DNA from: Candidatus Nitrotoga arctica
GTDB lineage: Bacteria > Pseudomonadota > Gammaproteobacteria > Burkholderiales > Gallionellaceae
Assembly (NCBI RefSeq): GCF_918378365.1
Contig: NZ_OU912926.1
Location: 1,674,001-1,738,000 of the forward strand
Length of the DNA: 64,000 bases
Reading direction: 5' to 3'
This document shows positions 2,738 to 16,067 of this stretch, in pieces. The first letter of the stretch is position 1. The number at the start of each line of letters is the position of its first letter. The translations under genes were made by a program, and so were the position numbers. Below the pieces are notes generated by a model, which searched no databases, was not told the DNA's origin, and saw only the letters and a program-made list of their open reading frames with translations.

Positions 2738-3847
2738 ATGGCTGAACTCAATAAAATCGTAGGGCTTGCTTGGGGGCCAGGATTCCAGAGTACCGGCAGC
2801 CCGGTTGAAGTCTCAATATCGAACTATGGACTGCAACTGACCACGCAGGATGACTACGACGGAACTCCTGCTTGGCGCGACATTTCTGTGCGTAAGGGGG
2901 GATTCAATGACAGTCAAGTGATGATCGAATGGCAGGGGCGTGCTGGGAGTTACATGCTGACAGTCTCGGACATATCATCGGTAGCCACACTTAGAGTACA
3001 ACTTAAGACTGCCCCTCAGAATAAAGAAAATATCAAAACGGCTGGGGCCAAAATACAGGATAGGGCGACTCGCATTTGGTCAAATGCATTCATCTGGGGC
3101 ATATTCGTGTTGCCGATGCTGGTGCTCGTTGCGATTGTATGGGAGCACGAGAGACTTACGACATGGGCCATTTCGCATGTGACTGTGACACAGGAACGCA
3201 AATGGGGCGAGCAAATATTCGCGCTCACCAAGCAGCACTTAACACTGGTCAAAGGCCCGGGCGCCACCATGGTGCGAGAGATAGGTACGCGGCTATCGCA
3301 GGGCTCGGCATATCAATATGAGTTTTACGTGGCGGACGATGCGTCAGTTAACGCCTTTGCGATGCCCGGGGGGTTCATCGTAATAAATACCGGGTTACTG
3401 GCACTTGCCGATAATGCTGAACAGGTAGCGGGGGTTATTGCGCATGAAATTCAGCACGTGGAAAAACGTCACAGTCTGAATGGCATGGTGAAATCAGCAG
3501 GTCTGATGGTAACTGCCAGCATGGTGTTCGGCGATCTCAGCGGTGTGGCTTCACTTGGCTCTGCTTTGATCAAGTATAAGTTTTCACGTCAACATGAAGC
3601 AGAAGCGGACATCGAAGGTCTCAAAGCCTTGGTTGTCTCTGGCATTTCACCCATAGGAATGCGTGATTTTTTTCGAAAAATGAGCCAAAAAGAGACGCTT
3701 AATCTGGAATGGTTCTCGTCTCATCCTGCAAGCAACGACCGCTTCATGTCGCTTGATACAGCCATTAAAGCGTTACTACCAGCAACTGTCGCGGCCAAGC
3801 CATTGCCTTATGATTACACAGTGATAAAAGCGGTACTTTTAAAATAG
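2738..3847 (+). CDS. membrane-anchored M48 family metallopeptidase
   Basis: The 369-residue protein has three parts: an N-terminal soluble domain of about 110 residues, one membrane segment at about 117-135 (IWGIFVLPMLVLVAIVW) and a C-terminal M48 peptidase domain. The zinc motif HEIQH is at about 236-240, inside the helix VIAHEIQHVEKRHS. A downstream EAEAD helix supplies the expected third ligand, and the motif NAFAMPGGFIVINTGLL precedes the helix as in Ste24/HtpX-type and BepA-like enzymes. The domain order fits Oma1-like bacterial M48 proteins that degrade or refold damaged envelope proteins. It follows the AIM24-type gene closely and is probably expressed with it. The substrate is unknown. 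Confidence 0.85.
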   Translation: MAELNKIVGLAWGPGFQSTGSPVEVSISNYGLQLTTQDDYDGTPAWRDISVRKGGFNDSQVMIEWQGRAGSYMLTVSDISSVATLRVQLKTAPQNKENIKTAGAKIQDRATRIWSNAFIWGIFVLPMLVLVAIVWEHERLTTWAISHVTVTQERKWGEQIFALTKQHLTLVKGPGATMVREIGTRLSQGSAYQYEFYVADDASVNAFAMPGGFIVINTGLLALADNAEQVAGVIAHEIQHVEKRHSLNGMVKSAGLMVTASMVFGDLSGVASLGSALIKYKFSRQHEAEADIEGLKALVVSGISPIGMRDFFRKMSQKETLNLEWFSSHPASNDRFMSLDTAIKALLPATVAAKPLPYDYTVIKAVLLK

Positions 3848-3942
3848 TACTCTCTGCACATTTCAAACCAAGTGAGAAAATTTGACAAATGAGTTCCTTG
3901 TTCTTGGGGACGCCATCTTGCATAGCATACTCAAGCAAATAT

Positions 3943-4848
3943 TCAAGGAATGCGTATTTCTGTTTTGTTAGCTGTACCAGTTGCTGTTTGTAGGGGCTGA
4001 TCTTTGTGCGATCCGAACGTATAGGAGTAGATCCGCGTAAATTCCGCGCCCATTAAAAAAATCTGAGCTGAGTAATATATCCATACCAATAAAACAACAA
4101 GCGAACCTGCCGCTCCAAATCCTGAAGCAACGCCACTTCTGCCAATGTAAAACCCGATCAAGAATTTGCCGATCGTAAACAGAAACGCGGTGACCACCGC
4201 ACCAATCCATACATCGCGCCAAGCAATCTTCATTCGTGGCATTAACTTGTAGATCATTGCGAATGCAAGGGTAATTATCAAAAAACTCAGTGTTATATCG
4301 ACTAAATTTGCGAGAAGCCTGAACCCGCCAAATACAGGCTCCCACCATTTTCCTAATGCTGCCAACGCAGCACTAAATATGAGCGAAACAATCAATAAAA
4401 AACCTATCCCCAAGATCATTCCAAAAGAAAGCACTCGCGTGCGGATTAACCCAAATATCCCCGCATCTTCGGTTCTTTTTGGTGCACGCCATATCCTATC
4501 CAGATCGTCCTGTAACTCGGAAAATACTGTAGTTGCACCAACAAGGAGCAAAACTACGCCGATAATAGCGGCAGTTACACTTTCTGCCGGTTTACTCACG
4601 CTTTCGAGCAAACCTTGCACTACCAATGCACCGGTTTTTCCCATTAAGCCCTGTAGCTGAACAAAAATTTCTCCCCTTGCCACATCAACGCCAAAAATAA
4701 GTCCCGCTATAGATATAACAATTAGTAGCAGTGGAGCAATCGAAAACACGGTGTAATAGGCAAGTGCTGCTCCCATGCTGGGTGCATTGTCGTCAATCCA
4801 CGCTGCAAAAGTGGCTTTGATAAGATTAAATATTTGTTTTGTTTTCAT
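3943..4848 (-). CDS. YihY/virulence factor BrkB family membrane protein
   Basis: This is an integral inner-membrane protein of the YihY/BrkB family (older databases wrongly call it ribonuclease BN). The family signatures [20 protein letters not shown] near the N-terminus and [35 protein letters not shown] text near the C-terminus are visible (here [18 protein letters not shown] followed by [14 protein letters not shown]). About six membrane segments can be counted. I chose the ATG at 4848 (301 residues) over the upstream ATG at 4923, because AAGAG lies 7 bases before it and the shorter form matches the family. The function is not established; a transporter role is inferred from topology only. 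The C-terminal tail after [10 protein letters not shown] is short and polar. Confidence 0.85.
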
Positions 4849-5190
4849 GAGATTGCTCTTAATTATTGCACATCTTTTAGATAACCGGATTTGATACTTA
4901 CGCATGCCAAATTTCCTTGGCATTAAAACTGAATTCCTTAATTTTGAGAAAATTATTTAATTTTTGCGGGTTTAATTTAACGCCTTTTGGGCAAAGGAGG
5001 CTGGTTGAAAGTCAGCGAATTATAAAAGTGCAGATACTATCTCAATATCTATGGATATTATGACAAGACACGCTTACGTGGAAAATTAAGTGGATTATGT
5101 GAGTTTTGTTAAGACAGTCAACGTTGTTATGGCGCTATGCGTTTCTGATTGAAGAGCGACTTCGTCGTTCATTTTTGCAAGAGGGCTATA
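4849..5190. other. intergenic region between divergent genes
   Basis: I see no gene here. The stretch separates the minus-strand YihY gene from the plus-strand ComEA-like gene and presumably holds both promoters. It is AT-rich with no strong hairpin. Confidence 0.4.
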
Positions 5191-6679: not shown

Positions 6680-8545
6680 CTAGATTCCTTCTTCCATAGC
6701 CATTTCAAGAGCCATTTCAAGTTCAAGCCAGCTTTCCTCCAATTCGGCCACTTTTTTTTCAAAGGTTGTATACAGGGTGTTCAGCTTGATGATTTCTTCA
6801 CGGTCAGGATTGACATAGGTAGCTGGATCGGCCAACTGGCGGTTGACTTCGGCCAGTTCCGCCTGAGCTTTTGACAGCGCAGCTTCGAGTTTGGATTGTT
6901 TCGATAGAAGTGCTTTCTTATTTGGCTTGGCTGCAGTTGACTGGCGCGATTTTTCTGTTTGAACTTGAGTGGTTTCGCGCGGGCGGCGTGTTTCTATCCA
7001 ATTTTTGTAGTCTTCCAAGTCACCATCAAACAGTTTGGCATTGCCATCCGCAACCAGCCATAACTCGTCGGCTACGGCGCGGATCAGGCTGCGATCGTGA
7101 GACACTAATACCACTGCGCCAGTGTATTCCTCCAGCGCCAGCGTGAGGGCATCGCGCATGTCCAGATCGAGATGATTGGTGGGTTCGTCGAGTAACAATA
7201 AATGCGGCTTCTGCCAAGCTAAAAGGGCCAGCGCCAAACGGCTTTTTTCGCCACCGGAAAAGCTTGATACCGGGCGATCTTCGCTGTCTCCAGCTAGACC
7301 GAAGCGACCGAGAAAGGTGCGCAGTACCAGTGTCGTGACTTTAGGCGCCAACTTTTCCATGTGTTGCAAAGGCGTAGCCGCACTGTCCAAGTTTTCCAGT
7401 TGATGCTGGGCGAAGTAACCGATGCGGATGTCCGGCGTGATTTCCAGCTGACCCAAGGTGGGCTTAAGCTCGCCCACTAACAGCTTGATCAAGGTGGATT
7501 TCCCGGCGCCGTTCGGCCCAAGCAGGGCGATGCGCGCGCCCGCTCGCAGTACCAAGTCGACGTTATGAAATAGGGCTTTGTCACCATAACTAAAGCCCAT
7601 TTTATCGGCACGCAGTAATAAGTCGGGGCTACGCTCCGGCGCCTCGATTTCCAGTTCGAAATGACCGTCGGTAATATGGGCCGGGGCGATGCGCGTGAGC
7701 CGTTCCAGCGCTTTAACGCGGCTCTGTGCTTGTTTGGCCTTGGTTGCTTTGGCACTAAAGCGGCGGACAAAATCTTCCAAGTGCGCGATTTTTTCCTGCT
7801 GCTGGTGAAAAGCTTGATTTTGCTGCGCTATGCGCTCGGCGCGGGCGCGCTCGAAGTCGTCGTAGTTTCCGGTGTAGCTATCAATCACTTGGTTGTGGAC
7901 ATGAGCGATGCGATTGACACAGGCATTAAGAAATTCGCGGTCATGCGAAACCAGAATAAGGCTGCCGGGGTAACGTGCAAGGTATTGTTCAAGCCAGAGG
8001 ATCGCTTCCAGATCGAGGTGGTTGGTGGGTTCGTCCAGCAACAGCAAATCGGCTCTATGCATTAGCGCGCGGGCTAGATTCAAACGCATGCGCCAACCTC
8101 CGGAAAAGCTGCTGACCGGACGCTCCAGCGTGTCGTTGGCAAAACCTAATCCGTTCAGCAGTTGAGCGGCACGGGCTTTGGCCACGTAGCCATTAATTGC
8201 TTCGTAGCGGTGCTGAGCCTCGAACCAGGTTGGATCATGCTGTTCTCGCGCCATATTTTTTTCAAGCTCACGCAACTCCACGTCACCGTCGAGCACGAAT
8301 TCCAAAGCGGGCTGATCCGAGTTGGCGATTTCCTGCTCGACAAAAGCGATTGTCTTGCCGGATTGCAGTGAGATTTCGCCGCTGTCCGGCAAAACTTCGC
8401 CGCGAATAAGACGAAATAGCGTGGATTTGCCGCAGCCATTTTTGCCTACCAACCCGATACGTTGACTGGCGTAAGCCTGAAAATTTACTTGCTGCAGTAG
8501 CGTAGTGCCGCCCTGCAGGTACGTCAGATTTTGAATGTTTAGCAT
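6680..8545 (-). CDS. ABC-F family ATPase (YheS-like)
   Basis: This soluble protein has two ABC domains in one chain and no membrane segment. The first Walker A is GKNGCGKST at about 34-42, with signature SGGWRMRLNLARAL and Walker B LLLLDEPTNHLDLEA. The second half carries GPNGAGKST, SGGEKSRLALALL and LLLLDEPTNHLDLDM. The linker rich in Gln, Lys and Glu and the C-terminal coiled coil (LSKQSKLEAALSKAQAELAE onward) match the YheS subgroup. ABC-F proteins act on ribosomes at the E site to relieve stalling or modulate translation. I chose the ATG at 8545 (621 residues), because MLNIQNLTYLQGG is the normal N-terminus; a further ATG lies 27 bases upstream. Confidence 0.9.
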   Translation of the reverse strand: MLNIQNLTYLQGGTTLLQQVNFQAYASQRIGLVGKNGCGKSTLFRLIRGEVLPDSGEISLQSGKTIAFVEQEIANSDQPALEFVLDGDVELRELEKNMAREQHDPTWFEAQHRYEAINGYVAKARAAQLLNGLGFANDTLERPVSSFSGGWRMRLNLARALMHRADLLLLDEPTNHLDLEAILWLEQYLARYPGSLILVSHDREFLNACVNRIAHVHNQVIDSYTGNYDDFERARAERIAQQNQAFHQQQEKIAHLEDFVRRFSAKATKAKQAQSRVKALERLTRIAPAHITDGHFELEIEAPERSPDLLLRADKMGFSYGDKALFHNVDLVLRAGARIALLGPNGAGKSTLIKLLVGELKPTLGQLEITPDIRIGYFAQHQLENLDSAATPLQHMEKLAPKVTTLVLRTFLGRFGLAGDSEDRPVSSFSGGEKSRLALALLAWQKPHLLLLDEPTNHLDLDMRDALTLALEEYTGAVVLVSHDRSLIRAVADELWLVADGNAKLFDGDLEDYKNWIETRRPRETTQVQTEKSRQSTAAKPNKKALLSKQSKLEAALSKAQAELAEVNRQLADPATYVNPDREEIIKLNTLYTTFEKKVAELEESWLELEMALEMAMEEGI

Positions 8546-8861
8546 GGTGTCATGATAACAGACGTGCCACACCTTAAATATTAGAGCGACAGCTGGGTTA
8601 GTCTGTCCGATTGCGGCTATTTATTACTGGCAGCAATGTGCCATTTTCAGATGGTCGATATGTCATGGGGACGGACCGCCTTCGGCCATTGTTGCCGGTG
8701 ACGTCCAGATGAAACTACGACCAGTAAGCAGCCTTCAGCGGTCATAGGCGCTGAAATCATTCAGAACGGCTGCTTTCTTGAAACCCGACTGCGTGTTTTC
8801 GACACACTGCTGTCCTTCACAGCTAACATCGCGAATGACTGCTTCGCGCTGTACAACAGAT
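8546..8861. other. non-coding flank of the attC site
   Basis: No gene is seen here. The stretch contains several short motifs built on AAGCAGNCNTTC-like words (for example around 8718-8735 and 8760-8775, both strands). I regard it as decayed or non-coding DNA bordering the island. Confidence 0.35.
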
Positions 8862-8929
8862 ATTCAACGTGGAGGTCACCGGCGCTGCGCGGCTTTATTG
8901 CGCAGCGTCGGGTGGCCGCAGGGTTAAAC
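8862..8929 (-). other. integron attC-like recombination site
   Basis: On the minus strand this 68-base element begins with GTTTAAC, which fits the R'' consensus RYYYAAC. It ends with GTTGAAT, which fits the R' consensus GTTRRRY. Between them are near-complementary L'' and L' arms (GGCCACC and GGTGACC), separated from the R boxes by unpaired five-base spacers (CCTGC and TCCAC). A central stem, GACGCTGCGC against GCGCAGCGC, carries a short loop. The order R''-L''-stem-L'-R', the imperfect pairing and the segment CCGGTGACCTCCACGTTGAAT-like end match attC sites of proteobacterial integron cassettes. It sits 36 bases after the metalloprotease stop codon, in the correct orientation. No integrase gene is present. 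Confidence 0.7.
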
Positions 8930-8964
8930 GCCTGAATCATTCAAAGTAAATACGGTTACCAGTT

Positions 8965-10197
8965 TCATTTTCGGCCAAAACTCCAGTCGCTGGGTGCCTG
9001 AAGTCCTGAGGCTTCGCGAAACTCTAGTTCACCTGGACTTGCGCCCGTAACAGAGCGCTCTAATGCCGAAACAAAGGCGTTTACATCCAATCGAGTCGGC
9101 ATCGTGGCATTCTCGGACAACACTGGGTTCATCAAAGCCCAACCGCTAGCGCTTGGGATGTGCTCAATCCCGAAAGCGTGGCCCAACTCGTGCGTGAATA
9201 CTGGTAGCAAATTGACGCAATTATCATCTCTAAGAGCGACCTGATCGTTGGTCATTTCCGGCATCGTTCTGAAGCAGGCCACATCCCGCATGTTGAGGGA
9301 AATGGTTCGGCCAACCAATCGGGACTTAGCAAGCGTGAGAAAGAGAGAGCTATTAGGGAAGGTCCCGTCACCCCCAAAATTCAACTCGACTATGAATGTT
9401 GCGGCATGAGGGCAATATAGTTGTACGACTTGCGGTGAAGTGAGCAACGTGTAGCCACCAGCAGTAGTCGACGTGCGCGAACGGATGAAAGTGCGAATTG
9501 TCGGCGTGAGCATGGCATTGTTGTCCTGAAGCCCTGAAGTCCAGATGGTCAAGGCTCGACCAAATGAAGATCGAATGTCCTCTCCAGCCCTCTCAATGTC
9601 AAAGCCATCGATTGGATGCCCCGCCACCCGGACATAAAACGAGAAACCGTTGATAAAGATCTTGTTATTTAGAGGGGCTCCGTAGTCAAACGCAACAGCG
9701 AATTGCCGTGGCTCCCGGCACGCGTCTGATGGGAGTTCAGGTCTTGAAGGAGAAGAAGCATTTGCTGTACACCACTCCACTCGTTTAATGGCCACAATAT
9801 CTTGCCTATCACCATGCGCATCCTCCATGGCGCCGAAAAGCCGCAAGTGAAAATGCTGTTTGGAAAGCACTACAGATTCAGCTAGCACCCAGTCCCGTCT
9901 ACCTTGAAAGAGGACGCCCAAAACTGGAAATGACCTTGCCGGACAAGTTGCCATCGGCTTATTGGAATTGCGCCATCTTGCAGGCTCACAAATGTCCGCT
10001 GCGTCAATAACTACTCCAGAGTTAACGGAAATGCTACCTATTTTCGGACATCCTGCCCCTAGTTTCGCCACCTCGGGCAATATGCTGATCTGACCCGACG
10101 GTGTTGCCACCGAGATCAGATGCTGCGCAAACGAAAATGAACTCCCGATGAAAAATACAATGATCGATGCCAATGCTATTGGCGCGCATTTATTCAT
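8965..10197 (-). CDS. secreted matrixin-like zinc metalloprotease candidate
   Basis: The 410-residue product has a signal peptide (residues 1-24, ending FSFA) and, late in the chain, the metzincin zinc motif HELGHAFGIEH at 336-346. ALMNP follows, giving a candidate Met-turn at about M356. The spacing of ten residues from the last His to the Met is compatible with matrixin-type metzincins. Residues 25-330 show no domain I recognise. They hold paired cysteines (for example near 50, 70, 85, 143, 160), which suggests disulfides in a periplasmic or secreted protein. The start overlaps the stop of the DUF1353 gene by four bases (ATGA), so the two are translationally coupled. An attC-like site follows the stop. 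The substrate is unknown. Confidence 0.65.
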   Translation of the reverse strand: MNKCAPIALASIIVFFIGSSFSFAQHLISVATPSGQISILPEVAKLGAGCPKIGSISVNSGVVIDAADICEPARWRNSNKPMATCPARSFPVLGVLFQGRRDWVLAESVVLSKQHFHLRLFGAMEDAHGDRQDIVAIKRVEWCTANASSPSRPELPSDACREPRQFAVAFDYGAPLNNKIFINGFSFYVRVAGHPIDGFDIERAGEDIRSSFGRALTIWTSGLQDNNAMLTPTIRTFIRSRTSTTAGGYTLLTSPQVVQLYCPHAATFIVELNFGGDGTFPNSSLFLTLAKSRLVGRTISLNMRDVACFRTMPEMTNDQVALRDDNCVNLLPVFTHELGHAFGIEHIPSASGWALMNPVLSENATMPTRLDVNAFVSALERSVTGASPGELEFREASGLQAPSDWSFGRK

Positions 10198-10868
10198 CTC
10201 AGGTTACCGGGAATATTTTTCCATTCCTCCCAGCCAATTGAGAGGTCGCTAGGAAACTTTGCGAGCATGCGACGTTCGCCGTTTGCCTTAACGCGCCTAT
10301 TTTTTTCCCAAGCACATTGCCCCAGTTTGTCTACCGCTTGGTAGATCGCCCATCGCTCAATTCCGTCCACCTTTGAGTCCGCTAGTGCATATTTAAGAAT
10401 TAAATCCGATTCCTCCCGTGATCGCACCTGAGACCAATAAAGGTAGTCATGCACAACGGCCGCGTAGGCATATCTCCCTTCAGGCCGCAACACCTGCCAG
10501 AATACTCTTGGAATACTTGTCAGATCAGTTACAAAACCCTCTGGCACCGAAACGGGCTTAAAAGACTGCCCGTAGTTGGGGCGCCATAAAATCGATCCTC
10601 CTTTGACGTAGTAGTAATCCCAATCGCCGAAGGGAATAAGTGTTGCTAAGCTCAAGGCAGCGGCAGCTCCTCGACTCTCCTGAGCCGCGCTTTCCTTCCC
10701 AGCTTCGTCCTGAAGAGCTAACATCGCATTTTCGATGAATGCCTTGCGCTCAGTGCTTTCCAATCGTCTCGGTCCTAGTTGGGCACACCCCATGAAGGGT
10801 GCTGCAAATAGGGCAACACAGCTATTGAGTACTTTGCGACGCACTGTATCCACAGTTGAGGTCTCCAT
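10194..10868 (-). CDS. DUF1353-containing putative lipoprotein
   Basis: The 224-residue product has an N-terminal RRKVL followed by a hydrophobic stretch and a lipobox-like AAPFMGC (Cys28), so it may be a lipoprotein. The twin Arg hints at, but does not prove, Tat export. Residues about 108-147 carry the DUF1353 core: VPEGFVTDLTSIPRVFW followed by RYAYAAVVHDYLYW. DUF1353 proteins are frequent in phage and accessory DNA and have no firmly known activity; the conserved Asp and His residues are suggestive of a small hydrolase, which is inference. It lies 31 bases after the 382-residue gene and overlaps the metalloprotease gene by four bases. Confidence 0.65.
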   Translation of the reverse strand: METSTVDTVRRKVLNSCVALFAAPFMGCAQLGPRRLESTERKAFIENAMLALQDEAGKESAAQESRGAAAALSLATLIPFGDWDYYYVKGGSILWRPNYGQSFKPVSVPEGFVTDLTSIPRVFWQVLRPEGRYAYAAVVHDYLYWSQVRSREESDLILKYALADSKVDGIERWAIYQAVDKLGQCAWEKNRRVKANGERRMLAKFPSDLSIGWEEWKNIPGNLR

Positions 10869-10899
10869 ACAATATAGCGATCAATGACCGCTTCATAGA

Positions 10900-12048
10900 C
10901 TAGATAAGGTCTTCTATCTCGATTACGCCGAAGCTCTTCGGATTCAAGAGTTCAGCGGCCTTTGGCTTGATGTGCACGTCTCCCTGCACCCGAACCAATT
11001 TTCCCTGGTCATGGGCGATAACTGCCAAGTGATAGTCATCACCTTTCAACTCGACTCGAACCTTGCGCTCTACATCACCAATAATGGAGTCCAGCGTGAT
11101 AGTGCCGGTAGTCTCATCCTTTGGTCGAACTAGCTTTGTGATGTGGCCGGTTAGGACTCGATCAGGCAAGACGTAGTCGTCCTTGTAGTAGCTGGAGACT
11201 TGCTCTAGTACCTCGACATGGTTTCCATCAAACTCGAACTTACGAGGCACGTTCTCGAACATCGGACCAGCCGCAGCTGTGACGGTAATCTCGAATGTTC
11301 GGTTGTGCTTCTCGCCACTGAAACCGAGCAACGCATCGCATAGATTCGCACTAACGCCTGAGAGTACAGCTTCATCAAACGCTTTGAGGTTCCGTGTCTT
11401 CTCATACGTCGTGCTCGCTTTCGCAAGAGCATCTAGCCCGGTTACAAGACTCCACATGATCGCCTGCGAGAGTGGTACGGCATCAGCGGTCTCTTGATCC
11501 GCAACAACTTGGTCGACAACAAAGTTCGTCTGGTTCGGCACAATCACACTGACAACGTAGCTGCCAATCTCTGTTTGCCCAAGCAGGAGCGTGTCGAGAC
11601 ATTCTCGGGCATCCTTCGGCGCGCGTCCGGAGAAATTCCTGCGCTTGGCGTAGATGGCCTGGGCGGCAGCTGACAGCATATCCTTTGCCTTTGAGATAAG
11701 TAAAACGCCATCGTTAATCGGGATAGTGCCGTCTTCCGTATCCGCGTGAATAACTCTGACGGTGATGGCGTTTAAGAAAAGTCTTTTGACGTCGCCAATA
11801 GCCTCAAAAACATCGCGCTTCTCAAACGATGCGAGGGCAATGAGCGCATCGCGAACTCGTTGCTGAAAGTCTTTGGCATTGGAGGTCGGCAGCACGACCT
11901 CTGCATCCTCATCTTGGTGCCGATGCCAGATCGTCGCGACATTCCGAATCATGCCATCTTCGAACCATTGCTTTGACTGCAGATAGGCCTGCAGCTGCTC
12001 AACGGACACCGGCGGAGTATGACGATTGTGGCGCTCGTTTTCGCTCAT
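10900..12048 (-). CDS. unrecognised 382-residue protein, partner of DUF4365-like gene
   Basis: I do not recognise this family. The protein is soluble, with no signal peptide or membrane segment. The first two thirds look alpha-helical, with a region around residues 150-210 (LDTLLLGQTEIGSYVVSVIV onward). The last 120 residues have a beta-rich pattern ending in VRVELKGDDYHLAVIAHDQG and a conserved-looking KLVRVQGDVH segment, reminiscent of an OB-like barrel. Its ATG overlaps the stop of the DUF4365-like gene by four bases, so the two are almost certainly translated together and may form one complex. The context (attC-terminated island, nuclease-like partner) makes a defence or DNA-processing role possible but unproven. 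Confidence 0.6.
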   Translation of the reverse strand: MSENERHNRHTPPVSVEQLQAYLQSKQWFEDGMIRNVATIWHRHQDEDAEVVLPTSNAKDFQQRVRDALIALASFEKRDVFEAIGDVKRLFLNAITVRVIHADTEDGTIPINDGVLLISKAKDMLSAAAQAIYAKRRNFSGRAPKDARECLDTLLLGQTEIGSYVVSVIVPNQTNFVVDQVVADQETADAVPLSQAIMWSLVTGLDALAKASTTYEKTRNLKAFDEAVLSGVSANLCDALLGFSGEKHNRTFEITVTAAAGPMFENVPRKFEFDGNHVEVLEQVSSYYKDDYVLPDRVLTGHITKLVRPKDETTGTITLDSIIGDVERKVRVELKGDDYHLAVIAHDQGKLVRVQGDVHIKPKAAELLNPKSFGVIEIEDLI

Positions 12049-12548
12049 AGCGACTCTCCCGCACTCGCACGGTCCATCATCTGAAAAAGTGTCGCGCTGG
12101 TCAGGCGTTGCATAAGGGGTACGCCAACGGTGACTGAAGCTTCGTTATCGGTCGGTCCATAGTGTCGGAGGGACAACCAATGGCACGACTTGAACAAGAC
12201 GATGTGGTCATCGTAGTTGGCGATCCACTGATCCAGATTATCTGGCACAAGCAACACTGCAAGGTAACGCGGCACGACTACGTCCTCGCCGCGAAGGTCA
12301 TTGTAGTTTTTTATCTTCAGCGGAAATTTGATGACGTCATCCGCAATTAGGTCTTGCGACGAGCACTTGAGTTGGATCTGAATCATTGGGCTGCGAATTC
12401 TGCCCATGCCGAAGTGCCCCTTCGCTTGAAAAGTGATATCGATGCTATCGTTATCAACCTGAAATTGGCCACGGTTCAGCCCTGCATGAGCCGCTAGCGC
12501 ACACACGTAAGCATACTGGAACTCCTCTTTTTGCCTTTGTGGATCCAT
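12045..12548 (-). CDS. DUF4365-like protein, candidate PD-(D/E)xK nuclease fold
   Basis: The 167-residue product starts with a helix containing Glu9, then has DNDSIDITF (Asp at 34 and 37) and, after a beta-hairpin, PMIQIQLKCSS with Gln59 and Lys61. A D followed about 20 residues later by QxK within beta-strands is the usual active-site layout of DUF4365 and related restriction-endonuclease-like folds. The C-terminal half (VPRYLAVLLVPDN and SCHWLSLRHYG) also resembles DUF4365 text. It is the first gene of the four-gene minus-strand unit and overlaps the next gene by four bases. The assignment rests on motifs read by eye. Confidence 0.6.
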   Translation of the reverse strand: MDPQRQKEEFQYAYVCALAAHAGLNRGQFQVDNDSIDITFQAKGHFGMGRIRSPMIQIQLKCSSQDLIADDVIKFPLKIKNYNDLRGEDVVVPRYLAVLLVPDNLDQWIANYDDHIVLFKSCHWLSLRHYGPTDNEASVTVGVPLMQRLTSATLFQMMDRASAGESL

Positions 12549-12956
12549 ACGTTCTCTAGCTCCCCTCCAGAGAGTCTAATGTTACACGAGGTTGTCCGGA
12601 GTTTCGCGCAAAGCAGTCGTTTTCATCATCTGTTGAATATGTCCGAAAAGGCCGAAAAGCAGTCATTCCTTTGGGTAGAGGTAGCCAAAAGCGGCACTTG
12701 ATAATGTCAACAACAGTACGGAATACTACCGATAACAACGCTTATCAATAGTAGGCATTTCAGTATTGAATCTGCCCCACCATTGGTTGCAGCTCAAAGG
12801 GATGCTAAGGCACGAAATACACTAGGTGAAATATATGCCAAAGAGATCGAGAAATAACCCAAGAAAACTAGCTACAAGCCCTGACAGTCGGACGAAGGTT
12901 TCTTGAAAATCATACTGCGAGTCGCTTCTGTTCGCACTCAAGCAGGCGATTGCGCT
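12549..12956. other. intergenic flank of the accessory island
   Basis: No intact gene is seen. On the minus strand TTAGAC occurs about 30 bases before the first island gene, which fits the first six bases expected of an integron cassette (TTRRRY), although the base before it is A rather than G. The stretch also contains AAGCAGTC-type words like those flanking the attC site. At 12842-12906 there is a short plus-strand reading with a helix-turn-helix-like look and an internal stop. Confidence 0.35.
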
Positions 12957-13340
12957 CTATGAAAATTTAGCGTGAAGTGCTTGTTGGTACTGTTTTCTAA
13001 ATTCTATAGGTGATTGGATATTGTTGAATGCCTCATTAGAGCCACCAGTACCAATTACTTCAATATTTCCGTAACCAAGAATTCTACCGAGAATGCTCTG
13101 GTCAACTTTAATTGATTCAATTTTGGGTAAGTTCATTTCAAGAGTTCTTCTGGAAATAAAACCGACTTTCGCGATAACCCGCCTATTTGTAACGGCATAT
13201 TCGCTTGTGTACATTTCAATTATAGGTGCAATGAAAAGCGAAAATAAACCACGCCAAGATAAGAAGATAATCCAGTGGGGTTTCGCTTCATAGATTACAT
13301 TCTCACCAGCAGTTAGATTATTTTGAACGTATTTACCCAT
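12957..13340 (-). CDS. bacterial PH-domain membrane protein
   Basis: The 127-residue product matches the bacterial PH-domain (bPH2, YdbS-like) family. A short N-terminus (LTAGENVIYEAKPHW) leads into a hydrophobic segment (about residues 26-43). Then comes the characteristic YAVTNRRVIAKVGFISRRTLEMNLPKIESI, given here only as its landmarks YAVTNRRV and LPKIESIKVDQS, followed by RILGYGNIEVIGTGGS. Such proteins sit in the membrane with the PH domain in the cytoplasm; the role is unknown. AGGTG precedes the ATG. It is just outside the attC-type island and on the same strand, but 400 bases separate it from the DUF4365-like gene, so co-transcription is doubtful. Confidence 0.8.
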   Translation of the reverse strand: MGKYVQNNLTAGENVIYEAKPHWIIFLSWRGLFSLFIAPIIEMYTSEYAVTNRRVIAKVGFISRRTLEMNLPKIESIKVDQSILGRILGYGNIEVIGTGGSNEAFNNIQSPIEFRKQYQQALHAKFS

Positions 13341-13818: not shown

Positions 13819-15102
13819 ATGAATATTAATTCCCTCAGAAATAATTTCGATAAGCTTGATCCGCATGGATTGGGCGAGCGACTAAGGTCGGTGCGCGCGC
13901 GCACGGAAGCTCTCTGCGCGCCTTTGGAAAAAGAGGATCACTGTATTCAAGGTATGCTGGATGTCAGTCCGCCCAAATGGCATTTGGCTCATACCACATG
14001 GTTTTTTGAAACCTTTGTTCTATTGCCTTTCGGACAAAACTATCAGGTTTTTCATCATGCCTACGGATATCTGTTTAACTCCTATTATGAAACGGTTGGT
14101 ACTTTCTTTCCCAGGTCACAACGTGGGCTCTTGTCTCGTCCAACCGTAGCAGAGGTTTATAACTATCGCTGCCACGTAAACGCCGCACTTGATCAAATAT
14201 TGGAGAATTACACCGGGCAGAATTGGCAGGAGATTGCTGAACGAATTCGTTTGGGCATTGAGCATGAGATTCAGCATCAAGAACTTTTACTGATGGATGC
14301 GAAATACAATTTCTTCATTAACCCCTTAAAGCCAGCCTATCATAGTCAGTCTCCAATTCGATGCCCAGAGCCACCACCATTGGCCTGGATGGAATACGAA
14401 GGCGGTATTGTCGAAATTGGGCATGATGATGATCAAGGTTTTTCTTTTGACAACGAAAGACCTCGTCATAAAACTTTTCTTAGAGACTTTCGCTTGGGCA
14501 CAAGGCTAATTACCAATGCAGAATATTTATCTTTCATCGCCGATAAAAGTTATCAACGGGCCGAACTCTGGCTTTCCGATGGCTGGCGCACTGTCAACGA
14601 GCAGGGATGGCAAGCCCCACTTTATTGGATAAAAGAAGAGAATAACTGGTTGCTATCGGGGCTGGCGGGTCAGCATCTTATTGACCTGAATGAACCAGTA
14701 GCTCACCTGAGCTATTATGAAGCCGATGCTTTCGCGCGATGGTCTGGCAAGCGGCTACCAACCGAAAGCGAATGGGAATACGTCGCCGCCAAATTGCCGA
14801 TAGAAGGAAATTTCCTTGATTCCGGGCGCTTCCATCCAGATGGCGCTCGATGTTCTGGTCTAACCCAGCTTTACGGTGATCTTTGGGAGTGGACTCAAAG
14901 TCCTTATCAACCCTATCCGGGTTTTCGTTCTCTTCCTGGCGCATTGGGTGAATATAACGGCAAATTCATGTGTAATCAGATGGTGCTGCGTGGCGGGTCA
15001 TGCGCAACAGCAAAGGATCATATCAGGGCGAGTTATCGAAATTTTTTTCCTCCAGGGAGTCGTTGGGTATTCTCAGGTTTACGTTTAGCGGAGGATTTGT
15101 AA
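13819..15102 (+). CDS. egtB: ergothioneine biosynthesis sulfoxide synthase-type protein EgtB
   Basis: The 427-residue protein has an N-terminal DinB-like domain and a C-terminal formylglycine-generating-enzyme-like domain, the EgtB order. EgtB joins oxygen, a thiol donor and trimethylhistidine (hercynine) at a non-haem iron. The likely iron ligands are His58 in SPPKWHLAHTTWFFETF and His149/His153 in EHEIQHQELLLMD. The C-terminal half has GLTQLYGDLWEWTQSPYQPY and LRGGSCATAKDHIRASYRN, both standard. Its stop codon overlaps the egtD start by one base (TAATG). No egtA or egtC is adjacent, so thiol donor and later steps cannot be judged from here. Confidence 0.9.
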   Translation: MNINSLRNNFDKLDPHGLGERLRSVRARTEALCAPLEKEDHCIQGMLDVSPPKWHLAHTTWFFETFVLLPFGQNYQVFHHAYGYLFNSYYETVGTFFPRSQRGLLSRPTVAEVYNYRCHVNAALDQILENYTGQNWQEIAERIRLGIEHEIQHQELLLMDAKYNFFINPLKPAYHSQSPIRCPEPPPLAWMEYEGGIVEIGHDDDQGFSFDNERPRHKTFLRDFRLGTRLITNAEYLSFIADKSYQRAELWLSDGWRTVNEQGWQAPLYWIKEENNWLLSGLAGQHLIDLNEPVAHLSYYEADAFARWSGKRLPTESEWEYVAAKLPIEGNFLDSGRFHPDGARCSGLTQLYGDLWEWTQSPYQPYPGFRSLPGALGEYNGKFMCNQMVLRGGSCATAKDHIRASYRNFFPPGSRWVFSGLRLAEDL

Positions 15103-16067
15103 TGAAAATGGAATACCCCAACGTTCCAGCAGATATTGTCGAGAGTGAGAGTTTTCGGTTAGATGTTTGCGCCGGTCTGCGCCAACAGCAGCGTTCAATT
15201 CCGCCGAAATATTTTTATGATGCGCAAGGATCAGCGCTGTTCGAGCAGATATGTGAAACTACAGAATATTACCCGACTCGTACTGAAACGGCCATTCTGG
15301 ATCAGTATAGTGTTGAGATGATGGGCCTCATCGGTCAATCTTGTGCCCTAGTCGAATTTGGTTGCGGTAGCGCAGTGAAGACGCCATTACTTATGCGTCA
15401 TTTGGATTCTTCAGCAGCCTGTGTACTCATAGATATTTGTAAACCGCAATTAGAACAAACTGAGGCACGTTTGGTCGCGCAGTTCCCTAATATTGAAATC
15501 TTAGCTGTGTGTGCGGATTACACTCAGCTAGAAGCTCTGCCGTTGCCAATATCCTGTGATTTACGTCCCGTAATTTTCTTTCCCGGTTCTACTATCGGCA
15601 ATTACACACCTGAAGAAGCGCAACATCTCTTGCGCAAAGCCGCCAAATTAATCGGGCCCAATGGCTCGATGCTGATAGGCGTAGATTGTAAAAAAGATCC
15701 GGCGGTTCTCAATGCCGCCTATAACGATAAGGCAGGTTTGACCAAGGCTTTTAACCTCAATTTACTTGCACGAATGGAGCGAGAACTTGGAGCCGAGATC
15801 GAACCGGATGGATTTACTCATTATGCCTTTTACAACCCTGTGCCAGGGCGCGTTGAAATGCACTTGGTTAGCCGCTTTGATCAAGTTATTCGTATATCAG
15901 GTGAGGAATTTTGGATAGGCGCGGGAGAAATTATTCATACAGAAAATTCCTATAAATATCGGCCTGATGAATTTCAGGATTTGGCGAAAAGCGCCGGCTG
16001 GCATTCGGAAATATTTTGGACAGATGCTAATAAATTTTTCAGTATTCACCTGCTTCGAGTTTCATGA
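15102..16067 (+). CDS. egtD: L-histidine N(alpha)-methyltransferase EgtD
   Basis: The 321-residue SAM-dependent enzyme methylates histidine three times to make hercynine, the substrate of EgtB. The N-terminal RSIPPKYFYDAQGSALFEQI followed by TEYYPTRTE is the family hallmark. The SAM loop is VEFGCGSAVKT at about 84-94, and FFPGSTIGNY lies further on. The ATG at 15102 overlaps the egtB stop (TAATG) and has GCGGAGGA upstream, so the pair is translationally coupled. The open frame runs further upstream inside egtB, but only as an overlap. Together the two genes supply the hercynine-to-sulfoxide part of ergothioneine synthesis. Confidence 0.92.
   Translation: MKMEYPNVPADIVESESFRLDVCAGLRQQQRSIPPKYFYDAQGSALFEQICETTEYYPTRTETAILDQYSVEMMGLIGQSCALVEFGCGSAVKTPLLMRHLDSSAACVLIDICKPQLEQTEARLVAQFPNIEILAVCADYTQLEALPLPISCDLRPVIFFPGSTIGNYTPEEAQHLLRKAAKLIGPNGSMLIGVDCKKDPAVLNAAYNDKAGLTKAFNLNLLARMERELGAEIEPDGFTHYAFYNPVPGRVEMHLVSRFDQVIRISGEEFWIGAGEIIHTENSYKYRPDEFQDLAKSAGWHSEIFWTDANKFFSIHLLRVS

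Follow-up and report, generated by a model that had tools for sequence, protein, structure and literature searches.

A solitary attC-type site at a variable spot of the Candidatus Nitrotoga arctica chromosome: a probable two-gene integron cassette beside a PDC-M02 module

Introduction

When four closely spaced genes end in an attC-like site, do they make up a single integron gene cassette, or have separate units come to lie side by side? The question is raised by a locus of Candidatus Nitrotoga arctica (contig NZ_OU912926.1, positions 1,674,001 to 1,738,000; this whole stretch of 64,000 nt is hereafter called the window, and its numbering is used unless another contig or locus is named). Four minus-strand genes, A to D, lie there between an ABC-F gene and an EgtB-like gene and are followed by a 68-base element that resembles an attC site. 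The original prediction, made from the sequence without database searches, placed all four genes in one cassette of about 3.7 kb. The common direction of the four genes was confirmed, and our analysis arrived at a different reading that we consider probable: genes C and D are a two-gene cassette, ended by the attC site, which an integron integrase placed beside a PDC-M02 module consisting of genes A and B. The site and the genes are as follows.

8862..8929, minus strand: attC-type recombination site, recognized by its boxes, fold, shuffles, alignment with attC sites of relatives, and a match to covariance model R1 (described below)
8965..10197, minus strand: gene D, 410 amino acids (aa), predicted secreted M10-family metalloprotease with the motif HELGHAFGIEH
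10194..10868, minus strand: gene C, 224 aa, DUF1353 protein
10900..12048, minus strand: gene B, 382 aa, PDC-M02B (PADLOC PDLC04330, 483.4 bits)
12045..12548, minus strand: gene A, 167 aa, DUF4365/PDC-M02A, predicted PD-(D/E)XK-type nuclease

Results

The element runs on the minus strand from 8929 to 8862, begins with GTTTAAC, and ends with GTTGAAT, with a stem in between; the outer boxes RYYYAAC and GTTRRRY are thus present in cassette orientation. The predicted fold was a single-strand hairpin with a central stem and with unpaired spacers separating the outer from the inner boxes. The predicted crossover point was at 8868/8867, within the GTT box, and 35 bases separated the element from the stop codon of gene D (last base 8965). 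The length, ends, spacers, stem, and position 3′ of the last gene had all been described in the original prediction, and all were recovered. An untrained scan for RYYYAAC ... GTTRRRY pairs with an enclosing hairpin, in which the plus strand only was folded, found three box pairs at attC spacing in the window; one of them, 8862-8929, showed attC-like folding and was the sole structural attC candidate. Among the 467 box pairs that arose in 100 dinucleotide shuffles, there were 57 loose structural hits; none was as stable as 8862-8929 (−18.4 kcal/mol), the lowest energy being −16.7 kcal/mol (0 of 100 shuffles as good). The minus strand, which had been proposed for folding, did form a structure (−16.5 kcal/mol), but the plus strand, corresponding to the bottom strand of a cassette, folded better (−20.7 kcal/mol), as an attC would be expected to; the fold z-scores at the element were −2.03 and −2.64, respectively.

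A DNA search of 61 genomes (the genome itself and 60 relatives) matched the element in many of them. The closest matches in relatives included sites on two contigs that also carry an intact integron integrase gene (intI): contig C213 of genome G014 (attC at 863-933 and 1632-1701, intI at 4061-5002) and contig C103 of genome G004 (attC at 775-844, intI at 3434-4372). The covariance model R1 was built from an alignment of 16 sites; a BLAST query with the window site had supplied 14 of them and the untrained scan the other two, and half of the 28 BLAST hits were kept out, being of a longer or broken form or, in two cases, from the genome itself. R1 matched the window site with 64.9 bits (E 1.4e-16), a score that is not independent, since most rows of the model (14 of 16) had been picked for their likeness to that same site. 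A covariance-model match, called for in the original prediction, was obtained with a model of our own; its score proves little alone, so that the weight rests on the untrained scan and on the linkage to intI. Both the untrained scan and R1 found one attC site in the window. On the evidence of the box and fold scan, the 100 shuffles, and the likeness to intI-linked sites, the attC call is upheld: in its sequence and predicted fold, the element corresponds to an integron attC site.

Scans with R1 scored at most 150 candidates per genome, and the match counts may therefore be too low. At E ≤ 1e-5, R1 had eight matches at seven chromosomal places in the genome itself, the window site included, so that the search for further attC sites proposed in the original prediction did yield scattered attC-like sites. 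At the same threshold, matches were found in 18 of the 19 genomes of the genus, four of these 19 being sources of rows in R1. Outside the family, 4 of 20 hand-chosen genomes had such matches, one of them with five sites within approximately 4 kb.

Integron integrases were sought with the profile TIGR02249 at its curated cut-off, which was exceeded in 45 of 80 genomes of the family. No intI above the cut-off was found in the genome studied here (3.30 Mb, one contig, C1), and the statement that no integrase is nearby holds for the whole genome apart from a fragment. This fragment (approximately C1:2871121-2871313) was approximately 1.2 Mb from the window attC and matched the IntI of G014 in two pieces totaling 64 residues, one of 50 aa (66% identity) and one of 14 aa (71% identity). 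For comparison, the identity of three further tyrosine-recombinase genes in the genome to the two IntI queries was 25–32%. An R1 match was located at C1:2872527, approximately 1.2 kb from the intI fragment. Given the fragment and this neighboring match, the lineage most likely once had an integron that has since been lost. The stretch around the fragment (L048 1135-3314, approximately C1:2869134-2871313) also holds an attC-like site and a small gene pair that, by eye, looks like a HigBA-type toxin-antitoxin pair, and this stretch is likely the remnant of the home integron.

The two genes next to the attC site overlap by ATGA. Gene D was barely above the cut-off for Pfam PF00413 (25.0 bits, cut-off 24); the H, E, H, and H of its motif were invariant across 23 aligned sequences, and its predicted model (mean predicted local distance difference test score [pLDDT] 82.0) matched the catalytic domains of matrix metalloproteinases (best Foldseek E 2.4e-4). 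Gene C matched PF07087 (81.8 bits; 21 sequences aligned), and its N-terminus has, by eye, the look of a twin-arginine translocation (Tat) or lipoprotein signal; a search of its profile against solved structures gave one insignificant match. In the proposed cassette, the two proteins would have a joint function at the cell envelope. When protein clusters were paired by identical longest-contig size (46 rows for D, 119 for C, and 120 for B, the genome itself left out), 23 of the 46 D rows paired with a C among the best 120 of 856, and 2 of the 46 with a B among the best 120 of 697. Thus, C and D seem to form a second unit and to travel together. Relatives of C were present in 18 plasmid records, all at <60% identity, and D had no match on plasmids. 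A homolog of D was found in one distant phylum genome. In viral contigs, D gave no match as a single-protein query and three distant matches as an alignment query, one of which (L195) had a weak R1 match (18.2 bits). In the literature searched, DUF1353 together with an integron was not found.

Genes A and B, which also overlap by ATGA, are PDC-M02A and PDC-M02B, adjacent and in order, and both parts match PADLOC. To our knowledge, there is no experimental proof of defence by PDC-M02, and the term was not found in the literature searched. Gene A matched PF14280 (59.6 bits) and PADLOC PDLC04297 (206.2 bits), with the D and Q.K of its D...QLK motif invariant across 21 aligned sequences. Q and K are named as potential active-site residues of a DUF4365-APAZ nuclease in a passage of PMC10810196, and by our own matching the Q and K of gene A would correspond to them; against solved structures, gene A gave no match. 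The predicted model of gene B (mean pLDDT 83.1) had no match at E ≤ 1e-3, and the best were OB-fold proteins (E 2.8e-3). Among named records, B was matched best by metagenome-assembled genomes labeled Nitrosomonas and Nitrosovibrio. An antiphage function is predicted for PDC-M02, in which A would be the nuclease effector and B possibly a nucleic-acid-binding sensor. NCBIfam had nothing above cut-off for genes A to D or for the neighboring PH-domain protein.

A was beside B in 74 of 79 fetched B loci, and neither C nor D was found in any of the 79 at E ≤ 1e-4 (at least 2,100 bases after B were available in 70 of them). Two loci, L098 and L099, matched the window from 12663 to approximately 10878 at 96.9% and 95.3% identity, respectively, the 3′ end of the match in L099 lying a few bases earlier. 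Beyond these limits, neither had a match to window 8500-13100; their surroundings differ. A and B therefore appear to be an independently moving unit with its own 5′ region; most of the stretch between B and C also belongs to this unit. The unit and the proposed cassette end within it are as follows.

10878..12663, minus strand: PDC-M02 module as the moving unit, from blastn, end alignments, and the reading of L098 and L099
12574..12579, minus strand: TTAGAC, the proposed cassette 5′ end, inside the PDC-M02 module

These data bear on whether all four genes form one cassette from TTAGAC (12579) to attC (8868), a reading that we now consider unlikely. Its appeal is that the genes run in the same direction and end in attC, and that a canonical box would result if TTAGAC were joined to the final G of the site. 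The hexamer is indeed present just before the first gene, but it probably does not mark the end of a cassette: in two other genomes the homology runs on across it without a break, and the approximately 80 bp upstream go with A and B (identity at 77 of 79 positions for L098 and at 74 of 78 for L099); L099 reads ATCAGAC in its place. Because the A and B unit has its own 5′ region, TTAGAC lies within that unit; moreover, the base that precedes it is A, not G. The tight packing noted originally holds inside A/B and inside C/D, the pairs that overlap, whereas B and C are 31 bases apart. With C and D absent from all B loci (nine of which have <2,100 bases after B) and with module homology passing through TTAGAC, the four-gene cassette was rejected as the leading reading, and the claim of a single 3.7-kb cassette is not supported.

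Rather improbable, too, is that A and B on one side and C and D on the other were once neighboring cassettes whose intervening attC was lost, in the manner described for fused cassettes of class 1 integrons. The gap of only 31 bp between B and C would suit this, and there is a precedent for cassettes fused into one mobile unit (in a passage of PMC4670013). However, neither L098 (with its 218 bases after B) nor L099 had an R1 match at E ≤ 5, and A and B have their own upstream region, unlike a typical cassette.

The cargo flanked by the ABC-F and EgtB-like genes differed among the relatives compared. At the same spot, G007 has a type I restriction system with PrrC (L078 3266-10286), and G015 has a PrlF-YhaV pair and a Dsr1-like protein of 968 aa (L080 1893-6611); no defence family was found among the cargo proteins tested in L081 and L086 and, with Pfam only, in L085. 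On the basis of three genomes, the spot is a possible defence hotspot of the genus, into which PDC-M02 fits. Fixed synteny in relatives, which would have spoken against mobility, was absent, and the variable cargo is in favor of it. In G009, a short joint leads from the ABC-F side to a conserved block, leaving the spot nearly empty; exact ends cannot be named at this joint because of repeats. A stretch of the same genome that adjoins the conserved block (L079 5516-5835) again matches the start of the ABC-F gene, though only in part. Two flanking features of the spot are as follows.

8681..8818, no strand assigned: dispersed repeat of the genus of approximately 130 bp, on the ABC-F side of attC, with matches in several relatives
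12679..12763, no strand assigned: short conserved block flanking the variable spot toward EgtB, found in several relatives

In two relatives, other cargo is bracketed by copies of the approximately 130-bp repeat in inverted orientation (L086 1442-1571 and 6960-7092; L085 6204-6279 and 10380-10506), and such pairs resemble the ends of a nonautonomous mobile element. When the two flanks in the window were compared for an inverted pair, only short matches appeared. Copies of a short GAATGACTGCTT-type motif were present on both flanks (8690-8860 and 12595-12670), and by eye some attC sites of relatives adjoin GAATGACTGCTT-like sequence. Farther out, at 13819-16067, the EgtB-like gene (DinB_2 and FGE-sulfatase) is beside an EgtD-like gene (Methyltransf_33), and the two have the look of an ergothioneine-type pair.

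The dispersed repeats at the spot, inverted around other cargo in L085 and L086, would fit an arrival of attC together with C and D by homologous recombination or by transposition of a larger segment, with no integrase action here. We give this explanation a small chance: no Pfam transposase was found in the five genes that lie between the ABC-F and EgtB-like genes (B itself had no family), and the flank matches of relatives stop by 8818, short of the crossover at 8868/8867.

Discussion

The reading that we prefer, a two-gene cassette placed beside the PDC-M02 module, would work as follows. The DUF1353 protein and the predicted secreted M10-family metalloprotease would be encoded by a cassette with attC at its 3′ end. 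The attC of this cassette would have recombined with a secondary site through an integrase active in the lineage or supplied in trans, and the landing place would have been a variable spot, beside an independently moving PDC-M02 module. Loss of the integrase and drift of the attC site itself would since have left the cassette stranded. The supposed drift is slight, and concerns extrahelical bases. A passage of PMC3053210 describes two such bases on one arm of attC, best a T and a G six apart; the same arm had, by eye, two or more interruptions in at least 14 of the 16 sites of relatives.

Several observations weigh against this reading. The predicted fold of the window site has one bulge where two are usual. 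The rows of R1 are mostly sites chosen by their likeness to the window site. By eye, no cassette 5′ end of the form TTRRRY joined to G was seen between B and C. None of the relatives compared yielded an empty site in which both ends were exact. L098 ends 218 bases after B and has little to say on what follows. The co-occurrence of D and C was read from matching longest-contig sizes, which is an indirect sign. A second unit of C and D with an attC was not recovered as DNA: in searches for D, the genome studied here was alone among 369 genomes of its class and among 158 of its family, and the 5.6-kb contig with the distant phylum homolog had neither a C match nor an R1 match.

The view that the element is a chance hairpin or else an ordinary repeat of the terminator type, with which the absence of any Rfam family at gathering score over the whole window would agree, is hardly credible and was rejected on the single foldable candidate and the shuffle results, the box order and the near-identical stems in attC sites on intI contigs also speaking against it.

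A broader version of the preferred reading is tentative, and we regard it as doubtful as it stands. According to this version, the integron of the genus would be more a scatterer than an array, and would have dropped cassettes with one family of attC stems singly about the chromosome, a defence hotspot included; these would have become permanent after the decay of the integrase, and C and D would be a new envelope-acting two-gene cassette. The interest of the locus is that a solitary attC is tied to a variable chromosomal spot with defence genes in relatives, and that an integron lineage appears to be decaying into scattered sites. If this is confirmed, then it could be asked directly whether defence islands receive genes through integrases outside arrays, and what role the DUF1353-metalloprotease pair has in its host.

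Among known systems, PDC-M02 is a candidate defence system of PADLOC, with which the module shares both parts, adjacent and in the same order. A complete integron has intI with attI and the cassette promoter (Pc) nearby, and here intI occurred only as a distant fragment. Genomic attG sites have the consensus GWT. Cassettes at attG sites are the subject of Loot et al. 2024, to judge from the title as cited in PMC11023631 and from the Escherichia coli result as mentioned in PMC12444791; common to those insertions and the one proposed here are cassettes at scattered chromosomal places, with intI reduced to a fragment in our case. Clusters of attC sites lacking integrases (CALIN) are described for IntegronFinder 2.0, and a CALIN with a single attC can be true (a passage of PMC9024848). 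The locus is like a CALIN in having attC with no integrase nearby, but differs in that the default of that program is at least two clustered attC sites; here there is one in the window, beside a defence module that is not cassette-like. For Xanthomonas, a passage of PMC12444791 describes integrons whose intI is inactivated and CALINs that lie outside the home locus. The loss of the integrase and the attC sites left elsewhere in the genome are shared with our case, whereas the Xanthomonas CALINs were counted from two attC sites up and are at recurrent places, unlike the single site of the window. On the literature searched, the kind of locus is known and its setting seems to be new.

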